Shown here: positions 37,364-44,118 of the stretch, in pieces | Position numbering within the stretch: the stretch's first letter is position 1 | Layout of the letters: each line of letters opens with the position of its first letter | Source of the DNA: Methanolinea mesophila | Lineage (GTDB): Archaea > Halobacteriota > Methanomicrobia > Methanomicrobiales > Methanospirillaceae | Length of the DNA: 64,000 bases | Direction: 5' to 3' | Assembly: GCF_017873855.1 (NCBI RefSeq) | Contig: NZ_JAGGKR010000001.1 | Coordinates: 496,001 to 560,000 of the forward strand | Made by a program: the position numbers and the translations under genes | The notes under the pieces: generated by a model | Database searches by the model: none | What the model saw: only the letters and a program-made list of their open reading frames with translations | What the model was told of the DNA's origin: nothing

Positions 37364-39023
37364 AATCCTGATTGAAAGCCTGCAGCGTGAGGGAGTCGAG
37401 ACACTCTTCGGGTATCCCGGAGGGGTGGTGCTTCCCATCTACGACGAGCTTTTCGATTCGCCGCTGAACCACATCCTGGTTCGGCATGAACAGGCAGCGG
37501 CACACGCTGCCGACGGATATGCAAGGGCGAGCGGAAAGGTAGGCGTATGCCTGGCTACTTCGGGACCCGGCGCCTGCAACCTGGTAACCGGTATCGCCAC
37601 CGCGTACATGGATTCAATCCCCGTGGTGGCTCTTACCGGACAGGTCCCTACCAGCCTGCTCGGGAACGACGCCTTCCAGGAGTCCGATATCACCGGCATC
37701 ACCCTGCCGGTCACCAAACATAATTACCTTGTAAAAAGGACCGAGGATCTCGGCCATGTGGTGAAGGAGGCATTCTATATCTCCAATACCGGCAGGAAGG
37801 GGCCGGTCCTGATCGACCTCCCGAAGGACGTGAGTACCAAGGAGATCGAGTACGAGTTCCCTGAGAACGACGAACTGGTGCTTCGGGGGTACCAACCGAC
37901 CTACAGGGGACACGCCCGGCAGATCGAGAAAGCCCTGGAACTTATTGCACTCGCGGAACGACCCCTCATCTATGCGGGAGGCGGAGTAATTAGTTCGGAT
38001 GCCTCCCGGGAGCTGGTCCAGTTCGCGGAGATGCTCCAGATCCCGGTGACAACGACCCTGATGGGGCTCGGTGCGATACCCTGCGACCATCCCCTGAACC
38101 TGGGGATGCTCGGGATGCACGGCACCCAGTACGCCAATTATGCGGTCACCGAGTGCGACCTGTTATTCAGTGTCGGGGTCAGGTTCGACGACCGGGTGAC
38201 GGGAAAGATCGAGACATTCGCATCCCGTGCACAGGTCATCCACGTCGACATTGATCCTGCGGAGATCGGCAAGAACAAAAAGGTCGACGTGCCCATCGTC
38301 GGGGACGCCAAGGGCGTGCTCGCGGATATGTGTGCCAGGATCCAGAAGAAGGCGGGATACCAGAATTGGATCTCCAGGATTAACTCCTGGAAGCAGAAGT
38401 ATCCCATGCGGTTCCGCGAGGACGGGCACCTTCGGCCCCAGATGATCATACGGGAGCTCTCCGACCTCCTTGCGGGTGAAGGTATCGTGGTGAGCGAAGT
38501 GGGCCAGAACCAGATGTGGACCGCCCAGTACTTCTGCTTTAAGAAGCCCCGCACCTGGATCACCTCGGGCGGCCTCGGGACCATGGGTTACGGGTTCCCG
38601 GCCGCAATGGGGGCGCATTTTGCGAGGCCCGATCAGCCGGTCTTCGACATCGCCGGCGACGGGAGTTTCCAGATGAACATCCAGGAACTCGGTACCGTCT
38701 CCCACAACCGTATCCCGGTCAAAGTCGCGGTCCTCAACAACATGTTCCTCGGGATGGTCCGGCAATGGCAGGAGCTTTTCCACAACCGCCGTTACTCCTT
38801 TACCGAGCTCCCCCCGGTTGACTTCGTCAAGATCGCAAACGCCTACGGGGTTGACGGAATGCGGGTCGACTCCCCCGACCAGGTCAGGGAAGCCTTAAAG
38901 ACCGCGATCGAGACCGAAGGTCCCTTCGTGCTGGATTTCAGGATCGAGCGGGAAGAGAACGTGTTTCCCATGGTGCCCGCAGGGGCGGCGATCAACGAGA
39001 TGATCGGGGGGTGCCAGGAATGA
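37347..39023 (+). CDS. ilvB: Acetolactate synthase, large (catalytic) subunit
   Basis: ThDP- and FAD-dependent synthase making 2-acetolactate or 2-aceto-2-hydroxybutyrate, the first common step to valine, leucine and isoleucine. The 558-residue product has the catalytic glutamate E48 in VRHEQAAAHAADGYA, FAD/ThDP domains, the ThDP-Mg motif GDGSFQMNIQELGT near 438-451 with VAVLNN, and MVRQWQELF typical of AHAS. The ATG lies 17 bases before the end of the upstream synthase, and the stop overlaps the ilvN ATG, so the three genes are tightly coupled. Confidence 0.97.
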   Translation: MKTGAKILIESLQREGVETLFGYPGGVVLPIYDELFDSPLNHILVRHEQAAAHAADGYARASGKVGVCLATSGPGACNLVTGIATAYMDSIPVVALTGQVPTSLLGNDAFQESDITGITLPVTKHNYLVKRTEDLGHVVKEAFYISNTGRKGPVLIDLPKDVSTKEIEYEFPENDELVLRGYQPTYRGHARQIEKALELIALAERPLIYAGGGVISSDASRELVQFAEMLQIPVTTTLMGLGAIPCDHPLNLGMLGMHGTQYANYAVTECDLLFSVGVRFDDRVTGKIETFASRAQVIHVDIDPAEIGKNKKVDVPIVGDAKGVLADMCARIQKKAGYQNWISRINSWKQKYPMRFREDGHLRPQMIIRELSDLLAGEGIVVSEVGQNQMWTAQYFCFKKPRTWITSGGLGTMGYGFPAAMGAHFARPDQPVFDIAGDGSFQMNIQELGTVSHNRIPVKVAVLNNMFLGMVRQWQELFHNRRYSFTELPPVDFVKIANAYGVDGMRVDSPDQVREALKTAIETEGPFVLDFRIEREENVFPMVPAGAAINEMIGGCQE

Positions 39024-39523
39024 AACCCCATACCCTGAGCGTGCTGGTGGAAAACAAAGCCGGGGTTTTGTCCCGGGTTACCGGGCTGTTCAGCCGGCGG
39101 GGTTTCAATATCGAGAGCCTTGCAGTGGGCACCTGCGAAGAGCCGGGGATGAGCCGGATCACCATCGTGTGCATCGGGGACGATGCCCAGATCGAACAGG
39201 TGATGAAACAGCTGAACAAGCTGATCGAGGTGATCAAAGTCTCGGACATCTCCGATATGGACCGGGTGGAGCGCGAACTCGCGCTCATCAAGGTACATGC
39301 GGAGCCTGGTTCGGGACGTGCTGAAGTTATGCAGATCGCCACTATCTTCCGGGCCCAGATCATCGACGTGGGAACAAAAACCGTTGTGCTCTCGGTCGCG
39401 GGTGATACCGAGAAGATAGACGCACTGGAGACCCTGCTCCGGCAGTACGGGGTGAAGGAGTTCATCCGGACAGGAAAGATCGCGCTGCTCCGGGGTTCGA
39501 AGACGGTGAAGAGCAGCAAGTAA
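39020..39523 (+). CDS. ilvN: Acetolactate synthase, small (regulatory) subunit
   Basis: The regulatory subunit activates IlvB and gives feedback inhibition by valine. The 167-residue product has an N-terminal ACT domain (TLSVLVENKAGVLSRVTGLFSRRG, FNIESLAVG) and the usual second domain ending in a Lys/Ser tail. I take the ATG at 39020, which overlaps the ilvB stop as ATGA. The operon ends here; ketol-acid reductoisomerase (ilvC), often next, is not in this window. The end-joining operon ends in opposite orientation 37 bases further on. Confidence 0.96.
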   Translation: MKPHTLSVLVENKAGVLSRVTGLFSRRGFNIESLAVGTCEEPGMSRITIVCIGDDAQIEQVMKQLNKLIEVIKVSDISDMDRVERELALIKVHAEPGSGRAEVMQIATIFRAQIIDVGTKTVVLSVAGDTEKIDALETLLRQYGVKEFIRTGKIALLRGSKTVKSSK

Positions 39524-39559
39524 TGCCTTTCTTATCGGGGGCAGCGCAACGCCCCCGGT

Positions 39560-40972
39560 TCAATCCTTTCCTTTCAGCAGCAGCCAGTCGTTCTCACCCG
39601 CCTTCCTGAACCTGACAAGCACGAAGAGGCCGCTGATCCGTTCTCCTTTCATCACCACCTCGATCTTGTCCTCGTTCCATTCGAGCGGCTCGTAGAAGCC
39701 CCGGTCCCATATCCCGACCTCGCCAGCGCCGTACTGTCCCCGGGGAATGGTCCCCTCGAAGTCCGCGTACTCGAGCGGGTGGTCCTCCGTACGTATGGCA
39801 AGGTTCCTGATACCTGTTTTTTCAGGGATCCCCTTGGGGACCGCCCAGGATTTGAGCACCCCGTCCCGCTCGAGCCGCAGGTCGAAGTGGTGGGTGGACG
39901 CATAGTGCTCCTGCACGACAAAACGCGGGTGTCCGGCCTTCGTCTTTCCGATCTCCCCCCCGGGTTCGGGAGTCTCGTCGAAATTCCTCTTTTTCCGATA
40001 GTCATCGAGTTCCATCTGTGCATTCCTCTTTTCCAGTTGATCTAGCCCGCATTCTTCCGGCCTTTTATCCGGCCGCCGCCGTATAAAACGGGGAGCCCGG
40101 AGCATTCCTCCCCTGGTAACCGCCGTGTAGGCGACCTCGCAGACCATACCCGCCCCTACCCACCAAACCCCCGGTCCAGCGCCGGGGAGCGGGGAACCCG
40201 GACCGTAATCGTTGAGCTCCTGGAGGATCTCTTCGCGTTCCTCAATGGAAAACCCTGTTCCCACCTTCCCTATGTAGACAGGAGAACCGTGATCGTAGAG
40301 GCCCAGTATTAGTGCACCGAACGTCGATCTGCGCTCTCCCTGCCCCGGGGTGTAGCCAAGGACCACACAGTCGCAGGTGAGGATATTTTTTATCTTCAGC
40401 CAGTTGTCGCTCCTGATTCCGGGTTCGTAGACACTCGTCTTCTTCTTGGCGATGATCCCTTCGATTCCTTCCCCGCTCACCACCTCGAAGTACTCCTTCC
40501 CCTTCGTGTCGACGGGACGGGACAGGACCACGTGCGGCCCTTCCCGCACCTCGCGGGCAAGCAGCTCCTTTCGCCTTGTAAGGGGGAGCGCGATAAGGGA
40601 TTTCCCGCGGCACTCCAGGAGGTCGAATACGATGTAGGTTACCGGCAATACCCGTGAGAGCGCCGCGATATCTTCAGGGGAGGTCTTCTGGGCCCGTTGC
40701 AGGAGGGACTGGAAATCGGGCCTGCCTTCCCTCATTGCCACCACCTCACCGTCCAGCACGCTCGATTCCGGGGCAAGTCCGGTGATCTCCCCGATTTCGG
40801 GGAACACCCCCGAGAGGTCACGTCCGTTCCTGCTGGAAAGGCCGAACTCTCCGTGAGGGCCGATGAAACAGATCGCCCGGATACCGTCCCACTTTATCTC
40901 AAAGAGCCAGTCCGGAGAACTGAAGGGTGCATCCGCATCGCGGGCGAGCATCGGGACGTAACGTTCGCTCAT
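39560..40972 (-). CDS. ligD: LigD-type ATP-dependent DNA ligase with C-terminal 3'-phosphoesterase
   Basis: End-joining ligase, 470 residues. Residues 1-310 are the nucleotidyltransferase and OB domains of a LigD-type ligase: AMP-attachment lysine K27 in FEIKWDGIRA, LDGEVVAM, VFDLLECRGK, EGIIAKKKTSVYEPG and WLKIKN. Residues 338-470 are a phosphoesterase (PE) domain that trims 3' ends, with the Mn-site residues H356, H362, D364 (QEHYASTHHFDLRLERDG) and H398 (EDHPLEYADFEG). Domain order is Lig-PE, whereas bacterial LigD usually has PE before Lig. Its ATG overlaps the ku stop (ATGA). Last gene of the pol-ku-lig operon. Confidence 0.94.
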   Translation of the reverse strand: MSERYVPMLARDADAPFSSPDWLFEIKWDGIRAICFIGPHGEFGLSSRNGRDLSGVFPEIGEITGLAPESSVLDGEVVAMREGRPDFQSLLQRAQKTSPEDIAALSRVLPVTYIVFDLLECRGKSLIALPLTRRKELLAREVREGPHVVLSRPVDTKGKEYFEVVSGEGIEGIIAKKKTSVYEPGIRSDNWLKIKNILTCDCVVLGYTPGQGERRSTFGALILGLYDHGSPVYIGKVGTGFSIEEREEILQELNDYGPGSPLPGAGPGVWWVGAGMVCEVAYTAVTRGGMLRAPRFIRRRPDKRPEECGLDQLEKRNAQMELDDYRKKRNFDETPEPGGEIGKTKAGHPRFVVQEHYASTHHFDLRLERDGVLKSWAVPKGIPEKTGIRNLAIRTEDHPLEYADFEGTIPRGQYGAGEVGIWDRGFYEPLEWNEDKIEVVMKGERISGLFVLVRFRKAGENDWLLLKGKD

Positions 40973-41769
40973 TGGTGTTGAAGCCTGGCGAGCGTCTCCT
41001 GCAGGGCATCCATCAGTTCTCTTGCCTCTTCTGCGGCAGGTTTCTCGACAGTCACCGTTTTTCCCTCCATCTTCTTCTGGATCAGGTCCTTCAACCGATC
41101 GCGGTAGGTGTCCTGGAAATCCGCAATATCGAACTCACCGGTGAGGTCGCCGATGATCTTCCCCGCTATGCCGAGCTCTTTTTCCGGAGGTTCGGACAGC
41201 TTCTGGATCTCTTCGAGATCGGGCGGGTTCACGATCTCGTCCGCGTAGTGTAATGTGGTAAGGATTAGAGCCTCGTGATACTCCCGTACCACCGCGGGGT
41301 ATTCCTTCGTCCGGAGCGTTATCATTCCCACGCCCGCCCGTCCCATGCTACGGAACGAAGAGAGCAGGAGGGAATACGCTTCATCGTTGCCGTCGGGAAC
41401 GAGCAGGTAGCTCCTGTTGAAGAATACGGGATCGATAGAGAGGGAATACACGAATTTATCCAGCCTGATCTTTCTGTCCGAATCGGGTTTCACGGCATCG
41501 AGTTCTTCGTTCTCGAATACCACGTACTCGTCTTTTCGTACCTCGAACCCTCTCACGATATCTTCCCAGGGGACGACCTGGTTGTCCCTGGTACAGACCC
41601 GCTGGTACTGGATCGGCTGGCCGTCGGCCCTGTGCAGAAGCCGGAACGAGACCGAATGGTCCCGGACCATGGTAAGAAGTTTGACCGGGACGTTCACGAG
41701 TCCTATGCTTATCGACCCGGTCCATATCGGGCGATGCGGGATCCTGGGGGCTGATTTGTCTGCGGGCAT
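40969..41769 (-). CDS. ku: Ku homodimer DNA end-binding protein
   Basis: Prokaryotic Ku core protein, 266 residues, which forms a ring on double-strand ends and recruits the LigD enzymes. Visible: WTGSISIGLVNVPVKL at the start, LHRADGQPIQYQRVC, EVRKDEYVVFENEELDA, SIDPVFFNRSYLLVPD and the arm region LTTLHYADEI. There is no extended basic C-terminal tail. It lies between polymerase and ligase, 1 base after the former and overlapping the latter by 4 bases. Ku is rare in archaea, so this operon is probably acquired by transfer. Confidence 0.95.
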   Translation of the reverse strand: MPADKSAPRIPHRPIWTGSISIGLVNVPVKLLTMVRDHSVSFRLLHRADGQPIQYQRVCTRDNQVVPWEDIVRGFEVRKDEYVVFENEELDAVKPDSDRKIRLDKFVYSLSIDPVFFNRSYLLVPDGNDEAYSLLLSSFRSMGRAGVGMITLRTKEYPAVVREYHEALILTTLHYADEIVNPPDLEEIQKLSEPPEKELGIAGKIIGDLTGEFDIADFQDTYRDRLKDLIQKKMEGKTVTVEKPAAEEARELMDALQETLARLQHQ

Positions 41770-41770
41770 G

Positions 41771-42631
41771 TCATTTCACCGGAATATCCTGTCGATCGTC
41801 GAAGATCCCGTTCCAGGGGTCTATCGTCCTGGAAATCACCGTTGCAATATTAAAATCTTCGGGTTTTAACGAAGCGGACACTTCGTCCCAGGAGATCGGA
41901 CACGAGACCGAGGCCGCCGGTACCGGGCGGAGAGAATAGGGGCAGGCCATGGTCTTCCAGGAGGTATTCTGGAGGTAGTCCACGAACACCGTACCCGGGT
42001 CCCGTGAACGGGGGAACTCCGACACGATCCATTCGTGCTCGCGGGAAAGGAGGATGCCGGTCGCATGGACGAAATTCCGTACCTCGTTGAAATTATAGCC
42101 TTCCTTGAGCGGGACCACCACGTGGAGCCCTTTCTTCCCCGACGTCTTCACGTAACCCCGAATCCCGAGACCCTCCAGTACATCCCTGAGTTCAGCGGTG
42201 ACCCTGACTGCCTCCTGTATCCCGAACGGTGGTTCCGGGTCTATATCGAAGAGTGCAAAGTCGGGCATTTCCGGTTCATTTGCAGGAGAAAGAGTGATGT
42301 TAAGCTCGATCGCGGCTAGGTTGGCGAGCCATATCAGGGTATCGAGGCGGTCACATACAATGTAGCGGACAACTTTTCCCGTGTGTCCGGATCGATGGGC
42401 GGAAAGGGTCACCCAGTCTGGGGTCTCCCGGGGGGCGTTCTTTTCAAAAAAACCCTGGTGGTCGATCCCGTCGGGAAACCGGTTCAGGATAACGGGCCTG
42501 CCGGAAAGAAAGGGAAGCATTTTCGGGGCGATCCTGATGTAATACTCGATGATCTCTTTTTTTGTAAGCGCGAGCTCAGGATAGAGCACCTTTTCAAGGT
42601 TGCTGAGTACGACTCTTCCGATCCTGCTCAT
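41771..42631 (-). CDS. LigD-type primase-polymerase (end-joining polymerase)
   Basis: Stand-alone LigD polymerase domain of the archaeo-eukaryotic primase superfamily, 286 residues, which fills gaps at broken ends with preference for ribonucleotides. Seen: MSRIGRVVLSNLEKVLYP, LTKKEIIEYY, the catalytic pair D129/D131 in FDIDPEPP, TSGKKGLHVVVPL with H170, and the third carboxylate D218 in VFVDYLQNT. The ATG at 42631 with GGGTG upstream fits the family start; the open frame before it has no family features. It is first in the operon and divergent from the glycan genes. Confidence 0.93.
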   Translation of the reverse strand: MSRIGRVVLSNLEKVLYPELALTKKEIIEYYIRIAPKMLPFLSGRPVILNRFPDGIDHQGFFEKNAPRETPDWVTLSAHRSGHTGKVVRYIVCDRLDTLIWLANLAAIELNITLSPANEPEMPDFALFDIDPEPPFGIQEAVRVTAELRDVLEGLGIRGYVKTSGKKGLHVVVPLKEGYNFNEVRNFVHATGILLSREHEWIVSEFPRSRDPGTVFVDYLQNTSWKTMACPYSLRPVPAASVSCPISWDEVSASLKPEDFNIATVISRTIDPWNGIFDDRQDIPVK

Positions 42632-42801: not shown

Positions 42802-44118
42802 GTGAAAACTGTCATTCTGGGGGGCGGTCTTACCGGGGTTACCCTCTCCCGCCTGCTCACGGAAACGGGTGACGAGGTGACCGTCCTCGAGGCGGCGTCC
42901 CGGATCGGGGGACTCTGCCGTTCAAGGACCGAACAAGGGTTCACCTTCGACGCGGGAGGCTCCCATATCATATTTTCCAGGGATTGCGAGGTCCTTTCGT
43001 TCATGGTCGACGCCCTCCGGGGTAACCGGAACGAACGCATCCGAAATACCAAAATATTCTACAAAGGGCGCTATGTCAAGTATCCATTCGAGAACGGCCT
43101 CGCCGGTCTTCCGAAGGACGATCTGTTCTTCTGCATCAATGAGTTCATAAAAACTCTGATCGCCGAGGAGAAAGGAGAACTTGCCCCCCCCGAAAATTTC
43201 AGGGACTGGATCTACTTCACTTTCGGAAAGGGGATCGCCGAGTGTTACATGGTCCCCTATAACGAGAAGATATGGAACTTCCCTGTCGGTAAGATGTCGC
43301 ACCACTGGGTGGAGGGGCGTGTACCGCGACCACCGGTCGAAGACGTGATCAAGTCGGCGATAGGGATCGAGACCGAAGGGTACACGCACCAGGCGGTCTT
43401 TACCTATCCCGTCACCGGGGGGATCGAGGCGGTGATCAGGGCGATCGCAGAGCCGGTCCGCGAGACGATACGCACCAATTTCCCCGTAAGATCGGTAAAG
43501 AGAGAGGACGACGAATGGGTTATCGGGGACGGAGATTCAGAAATCCGGGCGGAACGGCTGATCAGCACTATTCCCCTTCAAAATCTCATCCCCGCCCTGA
43601 ACGATGTACCCCTGACCGTTGCGGAGGCGGTAAAGAACCTGAAGTACAACTCGGTCGCCTGCATATTCATAGGGATCCGGGGCGAAGTCCCTCCCTATTC
43701 CTGGGTGTATCTCCCCGACCCCGAGACGGGACTCATGAACAGGATCTCGTTCCCGTCTAATTATTCTCCAGGAGTCGCCCCGGAAGGACACGGTTCGATC
43801 CTTGCAGAGATTACCTACAACGAAGGCGATGCGGTCTCCCTCATGTCGGACCAGGATCTGATCTCGCATGTCACGCTGTCGCTGGAAAAGATGGGCGTGA
43901 TTGATCGCACCCGGGTGGTATACTCCGGGGTCGAGCGGCAGGAATTTGCGTACGTAGTCTACGACCTGGACTATCAGAAAAATATCAGGATAATCAGGGA
44001 TTATTTCGACCGGGTCGGAATCGACCTGGTGGGACGGTTCTCACAGTTCGAATACCTGAACATGGATGGTTGTATTAGGAGCGCCATGAATTACGCAGGA
44101 AACCTGGCATGCAGGTAA
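42802..44118 (+). CDS. FAD-dependent oxidoreductase/mutase, UDP-galactopyranose-mutase or amine-oxidase-like
   Basis: Flavoprotein of 438 residues with an N-terminal dinucleotide-binding fold (VILGGGLTGVTLSRLL, then EAASRIGGLCRS) and AGGSHIIF. The family includes UDP-galactopyranose mutases, protoporphyrinogen oxidases and related sugar-nucleotide enzymes. The two glycosyltransferases that follow with overlaps favour a role in surface-glycan precursor synthesis, by inference. It begins with GTG (42802); a TATA-like ATATAAGG lies about 25-30 bases before it, suggesting a nearly leaderless transcript. The stop overlaps the next gene by 10 bases. Confidence 0.85.
   Translation: MKTVILGGGLTGVTLSRLLTETGDEVTVLEAASRIGGLCRSRTEQGFTFDAGGSHIIFSRDCEVLSFMVDALRGNRNERIRNTKIFYKGRYVKYPFENGLAGLPKDDLFFCINEFIKTLIAEEKGELAPPENFRDWIYFTFGKGIAECYMVPYNEKIWNFPVGKMSHHWVEGRVPRPPVEDVIKSAIGIETEGYTHQAVFTYPVTGGIEAVIRAIAEPVRETIRTNFPVRSVKREDDEWVIGDGDSEIRAERLISTIPLQNLIPALNDVPLTVAEAVKNLKYNSVACIFIGIRGEVPPYSWVYLPDPETGLMNRISFPSNYSPGVAPEGHGSILAEITYNEGDAVSLMSDQDLISHVTLSLEKMGVIDRTRVVYSGVERQEFAYVVYDLDYQKNIRIIRDYFDRVGIDLVGRFSQFEYLNMDGCIRSAMNYAGNLACR

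Follow-up and report, generated by a model that had tools for sequence, protein, structure and literature searches.

A Pol-Ku-LIG-PE operon of Methanolinea mesophila as a distinct archaeal branch of prokaryotic non-homologous end joining

The window, the whole stretch of 64,000 nucleotides of Methanolinea mesophila DNA analysed here, carries on its minus strand, between positions 39560 and 42631, an operon of three genes. These encode a primase-polymerase (Pol), a Ku protein, and a ligase fused to a 3'-phosphoesterase (LIG-PE; Table 1). The first-pass annotation had described three overlapping or abutting genes for Pol, Ku and Lig-PE, and open reading frames and domain profiles place them exactly there. 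Pol and Ku are one base apart, while Ku and LIG-PE share an ATGA, a junction kept in the window and in 16 of the 16 other fusion loci checked; this overlap is predicted to couple the translation of the two genes. The G+C content of the operon (0.56-0.60) is the same as that of its flanks. At its 3' end, a small G+C hairpin separates the operon from a convergent neighbour and is a possible terminator for both. The host genome (2.66 Mb in two contigs) has one PE, one Ku and two Pol of the non-homologous end-joining (NHEJ) type, as well as a replicative ligase. A second NHEJ-type LIG and POL pair lies on the contig C2 (L137, 8535-10471, plus strand) with neither Ku nor PE nearby, and in the tree its ligase falls among bacterial-type ligases.

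Table 1. Features of the operon and its immediate surroundings (window coordinates).
Feature	Position	Strand	Basis
Pol, stand-alone LigD-type primase-polymerase, 286 aa	41771-42631	-	ORF, Pfam, NCBIfam
Ku core protein, 266 aa, bacterial type, minimal C-terminus	40969-41769	-	ORF, Pfam, NCBIfam
LIG-PE fusion, 470 aa, PE C-terminal to ligase	39560-40972	-	ORF, Pfam, NCBIfam
LIG part, ATP-dependent ligase core (nucleotidyltransferase + OB), residues 1-309	40046-40972	-	PF01068, PF04679
Linker of LIG-PE, ~11 residues (310-320)	40013-40045	-	alignment + model
PE part, 3'-phosphoesterase, residues 321-470 + stop	39560-40012	-	PF13298, TIGR02777
Ku stop / LIG-PE start overlap, ATGA	40969-40972	-	sequence
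Small G+C hairpin, arms 39536-39542 and 39551-39557 (candidate terminator)	39536-39557	.	read from sequence
Flanking gene read as ilvN (acetolactate synthase small subunit)	39011-39523	+	ORF, synteny
Flanking gene read as FAD/NAD-binding protein	42802-44118	+	ORF, synteny

All four domains score above curated profile cut-offs, which bears out the earlier claim that the four activities are present and split as Pol / Ku / Lig-PE. Pol matches LigD_Prim-Pol in Pfam (PF21686, 6.6e-78) and passes the curated NCBIfam cut-off for ligD_pol (TIGR02778), and its best solved relative is the NHEJ Pol of Methanocella paludicola (5dmu). Ku matches PF02735 in Pfam (8.4e-39), Ku_bact above its NCBIfam cut-off (TIGR02772, 6.3e-77), and the solved bacterial Ku 9vnq (8e-48). 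The LIG part is recognised by DNA_ligase_A_M (1.6e-34) and DNA_ligase_A_C (4.1e-19) in Pfam and by NHEJ_ligase_lig in NCBIfam (TIGR02779, 240.6 against a cut-off of 227.75), with the ligase of M. tuberculosis LigD (1vs0) as a solved relative. PE matches LigD_N at residues 354-454 (PF13298, 1.4e-37, Pfam) and LigD_PE_dom above its curated cut-off (TIGR02777, 4e-55, NCBIfam); its solved relatives are the archaeal 3p43 and 3p4h, the Pseudomonas 2lj6 and the Methanocella 5dmp. The window proteins all fall below the cut-offs of the full-length LigD models in NCBIfam (TIGR02776, NF007210, NF004628). As Pol has a gene of its own, this is not LigD in the strict sense, in which LIG and POL, usually with PE, share one polypeptide. 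Judged by sequence, Ku, Pol, PE and an NHEJ-type ATP-dependent ligase are all there, as expected of archaeo-prokaryotic NHEJ.

The domains and active-site residues are intact. Those named at the outset are found in Pol (D129/D131/D218), in the KWDG motif of the ligase (K27) and in PE (H356, H362, D364, H398), and the last four proved invariant when their conservation was checked across 17 homologues. In these 17 aligned fusions, which are 46-55% identical to the window protein, the PE metal site (H356/H362/D364), its phosphate site (R366/H398/Y402) and E336/E396 do not vary, and neither do the ligase nucleophile K27 and residues E76, E171, K176 and K193. Aligned with the Pseudomonas PE (2lj6), residues R329, E336, Q354, S375 and E396 correspond to R14, E21, Q40, S61 and E82. 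The 3'-phosphatase activity has been tied to PE residues 14, 15, 21 and 82 (PMC8656161); residue 15 is printed there as Arg and is Asp in 2lj6. The window PE has N330 in place of D15, at a position that is variable in the family. In an AlphaFold model of LIG-PE the domains are confident (pLDDT 86), their mutual placement is uncertain (pTM 0.59), and the linker is weak, a low-confidence helix (311-327) spanning it. A fold search confirmed the ligase fold and left the PE domain unplaced.

Bacterial LigD occurs as POL-PE-LIG in Mycobacterium, PE-LIG-POL in Pseudomonas and LIG-POL in Bacillus. The window set shares with it the three catalytic domain families and a Ku partner, but is spread over several polypeptides, with PE after LIG and Pol separate. 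The distinct LIG/PE proteins, a collection biased by the query, comprise 38 LIG-PE, 25 PE-LIG-POL, 22 PE-LIG and 17 POL-PE-LIG; all 38 LIG-PE proteins are archaeal, and the 64 with PE before LIG are bacterial except for a PE-LIG-POL on a viral contig (L196). Across 80 named loci, PE always comes first when PE and LIG are adjacent in bacteria, be they fused or in neighbouring genes, and LIG-PE is present in archaeal records only. A search of 656 bacterial genomes at 1e-60, a limit that could miss a divergent bacterial LIG-PE interrupted by a long linker, revealed no collinear LIG-PE; the genomes came from three phyla, namely those of a Chloroflexota, a Blastococcus/Actinomycetota and a Deltaproteobacteria record. 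In the borderline bacterial frames of 500-580 aa that were inspected, PE either preceded LIG or was absent from the frame, and there was no one-piece LIG-PE among the best-scoring plasmid (20) and phage (15) records listed. That LIG-PE might be an ordinary bacterial order is thus rejected for the bacteria sampled, PE coming first throughout, and the contrast with bacterial LigD drawn at the outset holds in every bacterium examined, the genomes sampled belonging to these three phyla, with no Bacillota among them.

A one-frame LIG-PE is carried by 14 of the 232 genomes of Methanomicrobiales, the order to which the window belongs, and by about 35 of the 257 genomes of the class Bathyarchaeia, which includes Candidatus Bathycorpusculum. 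Pol and Ku lie upstream at every LIG-PE locus opened where the contig was long enough, Pol being ~1.2 kb ahead of Ku in a few Bathyarchaeia. Ku had been called rare in archaea, which is true overall, yet it recurs in Methanomicrobiales and Bathyarchaeia. Published counts give Ku plus a LigD ligase in only 10 of 243 archaea (PMC7719229) and Ku in 19 archaeal entries, Methanolinea mesophila among them (PMC11936186). The literature searched gave no description of LIG-PE, although key older papers lie outside that search and an earlier mention is possible. The pathway itself is known, and the novelty is an archaeal-specific domain order within it.

The ligase domains of the LIG-PE proteins, that of the window included, form one clade (100/100), sister to the archaeal Ku-Lig ligases. 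The PE domains fall in a clade of archaeal PE (100/96) that is separate from almost all the bacterial ones, and support is 98 both for the Pol clade and for the Ku clade with its archaeal Ku-Lig outgroup. LIG, PE, Pol and Ku thus all belong to archaeal clades common to Bathyarchaeia and other Methanomicrobiales; transfer had been called likely at first, and a recent one from bacteria is not supported. A single clade for all operon-encoded archaeal PEs was rejected (p-AU 0.0008), because solo PEs fall among them. Either transfer between the two archaeal phyla (Bathyarchaeia / Methanomicrobiales) or deep ancestry with losses may account for the shared clades. Since LIG-PE was confined to archaea in the set collected and its ligases form one clade, the LIG-PE operon represents a separate, archaeal branch within the known archaeo-prokaryotic NHEJ and is no recent bacterial gift. 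Curated domain matches, invariant catalytic residues, the conserved Pol-Ku-LIG-PE order and the archaeal clades together make it highly probable that the window holds a complete NHEJ operon of this lineage.

Methanocella paludicola makes Pol, PE and Lig as individual polypeptides, and its enzymes have the required activities and a preference for RNA (PMC4797286). The window system resembles it in its four activities and stand-alone Pol, and the solved Methanocella Pol and PE are recognisable homologues. It differs in that the window Pol lies outside the Methanocella branch, which would define a Methanocella-type archaeal NHEJ: the M. paludicola Pol groups with the second Pol of the host, from C2 (support 99), and this second Pol reaches 320 bits to 5dmu, as against 184 for the window Pol. 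The Ku-Lig pairs of other Halobacteriota (family f9, L033-L054, for example) likewise have Ku followed by a LigD-type ligase of the sister clade, but there is no PE on that ligase, and no PE or Pol in the loci fetched. The orphan archaeal PEs of Korarchaeum and Methanosarcina type (3p43, 3p4h) are the closest solved structures to the window PE, but are unfused and without Ku; several of those in Methanomicrobiales occupy the chromosomal site of the window operon.

Both a role in end joining and any advantage gained by fusing PE to LIG are inferred, the working being drawn from characterised relatives. A Ku homodimer would hold the broken ends, while Pol would bridge them and fill gaps, preferring ribonucleotides and sometimes displacing a strand. 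PE would then remove surplus 3' ribonucleotides and 3' phosphates, and LIG would seal the nick. With PE fused to the end of LIG, healing and sealing would probably be delivered together, in equal numbers and on a flexible tether, Pol and Ku being separate proteins made from the same, presumably coupled, transcript.

Several other readings of the operon can be weighed against this one. It is very improbable that the operon stems from a recently acquired bacterial LigD whose domains have been shuffled. Published reconciliations do report that Ku and LigD have been exchanged across the bacterial-archaeal divide (PMC7719229), but the archaeal placement of all four proteins, a base composition matching the flanks, and relatives with PE or Pol-Ku-PE at the same chromosomal site largely refute such an origin. 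Only slightly less improbable is that LIG-PE, like mycobacterial LigC, has its main role in mending single-strand damage by excision or gap repair, with Ku and Pol only loosely involved. Many methanogens keep PE without Ku, so PE must have work outside NHEJ, and base excision repair is a published role of LigC and Prim-PolC (PMC5663958). This role fits poorly with an overlapping Pol-Ku-LIG-PE order and a Ku/LIG junction conserved across two archaeal phyla.

The first-pass annotation also proposed that, with the Lig-PE arrangement, ends may be trimmed and sealed in a different order. A PE tethered after the OB domain, and not before the nucleotidyltransferase, could in principle change which step comes first, and the strict partition of the two orders in the set collected (38 archaeal, 64 bacterial with the one viral contig) would agree with this. 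The proposal is weakened by linkers of 7 to >50 residues in 17 fusions, and by relatives in which LIG and PE are split. In the closest one, G1329 (identity 72% for Pol, 79% for Ku, 70% for LIG and 74% for PE), LIG and PE are separate genes with the junction TGA AACC ATG. In Bathycorpusculum (L114) they overlap as ATGA, differing from a fused sister by a small linker indel. Moreover, LIG-PE may merely reflect an ancestral gene order Ku-LIG-PE. Structure prediction, suggested as a check, gave confident domains and left their relative placement uncertain. An effect of the tether on the order of steps is therefore unlikely. As fused and split states and linker lengths vary while the Ku/LIG ATGA is constant, and as domain placement is uncertain, what matters is probably the co-production of LIG and PE and not a fixed geometry. 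The G1329 operon (L246, 6612-9774, plus strand) has a stop and a frame change in the linker and lies at another chromosomal site than that of the window. The L114 arrangement was considered as an ancestral unfused state and rejected, both its LIG and its PE nesting beside the fused sister; more probably the two were split secondarily, or the assembly is in error.

In the window, Pol-Ku-LIG-PE occupies the space between ilvN and the FAD/NAD-binding gene. The same ilvN-side site holds Pol-Ku-PE in G032, G024, G014 and G029 (both flanks are seen in G032 only, contig ends cutting some others) and PE alone in G008, G028, G036, G020, G304 and G013. In G014 and G032, the Pol-Ku-PE genomes that were checked, a ligase is present at another locus. 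As some relatives lack LIG at this site, and others lack all of Pol, Ku and LIG, the family can do without the pathway. At another site, in G1384 (L219, 4640-5235, plus strand), the first 30 Pol codons run directly into PE, and Ku and LIG are gone, a clear deletion remnant; a candidate ligase-linker vestige in it was equalled in 69 of 2000 shuffles. Reduction from the full operon is the simpler reading of these variants. Stepwise assembly around a resident PE is also conceivable, as no convincing deletion scars were found at the PE-only sites, and in the PE tree the solo PEs are intermingled with those from operons. With Pol-Ku-PE or PE alone kept at the same site by relatives, some orphan PEs of methanogens are probably relics of such operons by reduction. 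Between Ku and PE in G014 lies a 36-bp tandem repeat of 9.2 copies (L141, 5648-5979), each unit of which reproduces part of the opening codons of PE.

A 2021 review credits the complete archaeal NHEJ set to Methanocella paludicola only (PMC8708640). The lineage described here reaches far past that single species, the complete set, with a domain order of its own, recurring in dozens of genomes from two groups of archaea. A broader proposal, that LIG-PE marks a long-established NHEJ branch of Methanomicrobiales and Bathyarchaeia, and that the orphan PEs of many methanogens are remnants of such operons that have shed Pol, Ku and LIG, is tentative, with somewhat less than an even chance of being right. 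The fused, split, ligase-less and PE-only versions, several of them at one site, form a natural comparative series, suited to asking what effect the PE-ligase tether has and for what reason PE by itself is retained in some methanogens.

Two other fusions were seen along the way. A KU-LIG fusion of ~665 aa with a conserved C-terminal stretch, for which a limited literature search gave no description, is found in three genomes of the phylum of the window (family f10): G111, G126 and G220 (L276, 3791-5794, plus strand; L274, 1340-3352, minus strand; L275, 2788-4776, plus strand). In G043, a genome of the order of the window (Methanomicrobiales), POL is fused ahead of PE (L253, 8328-10175, minus strand), and the 17 kb fetched contain no Ku or ligase.
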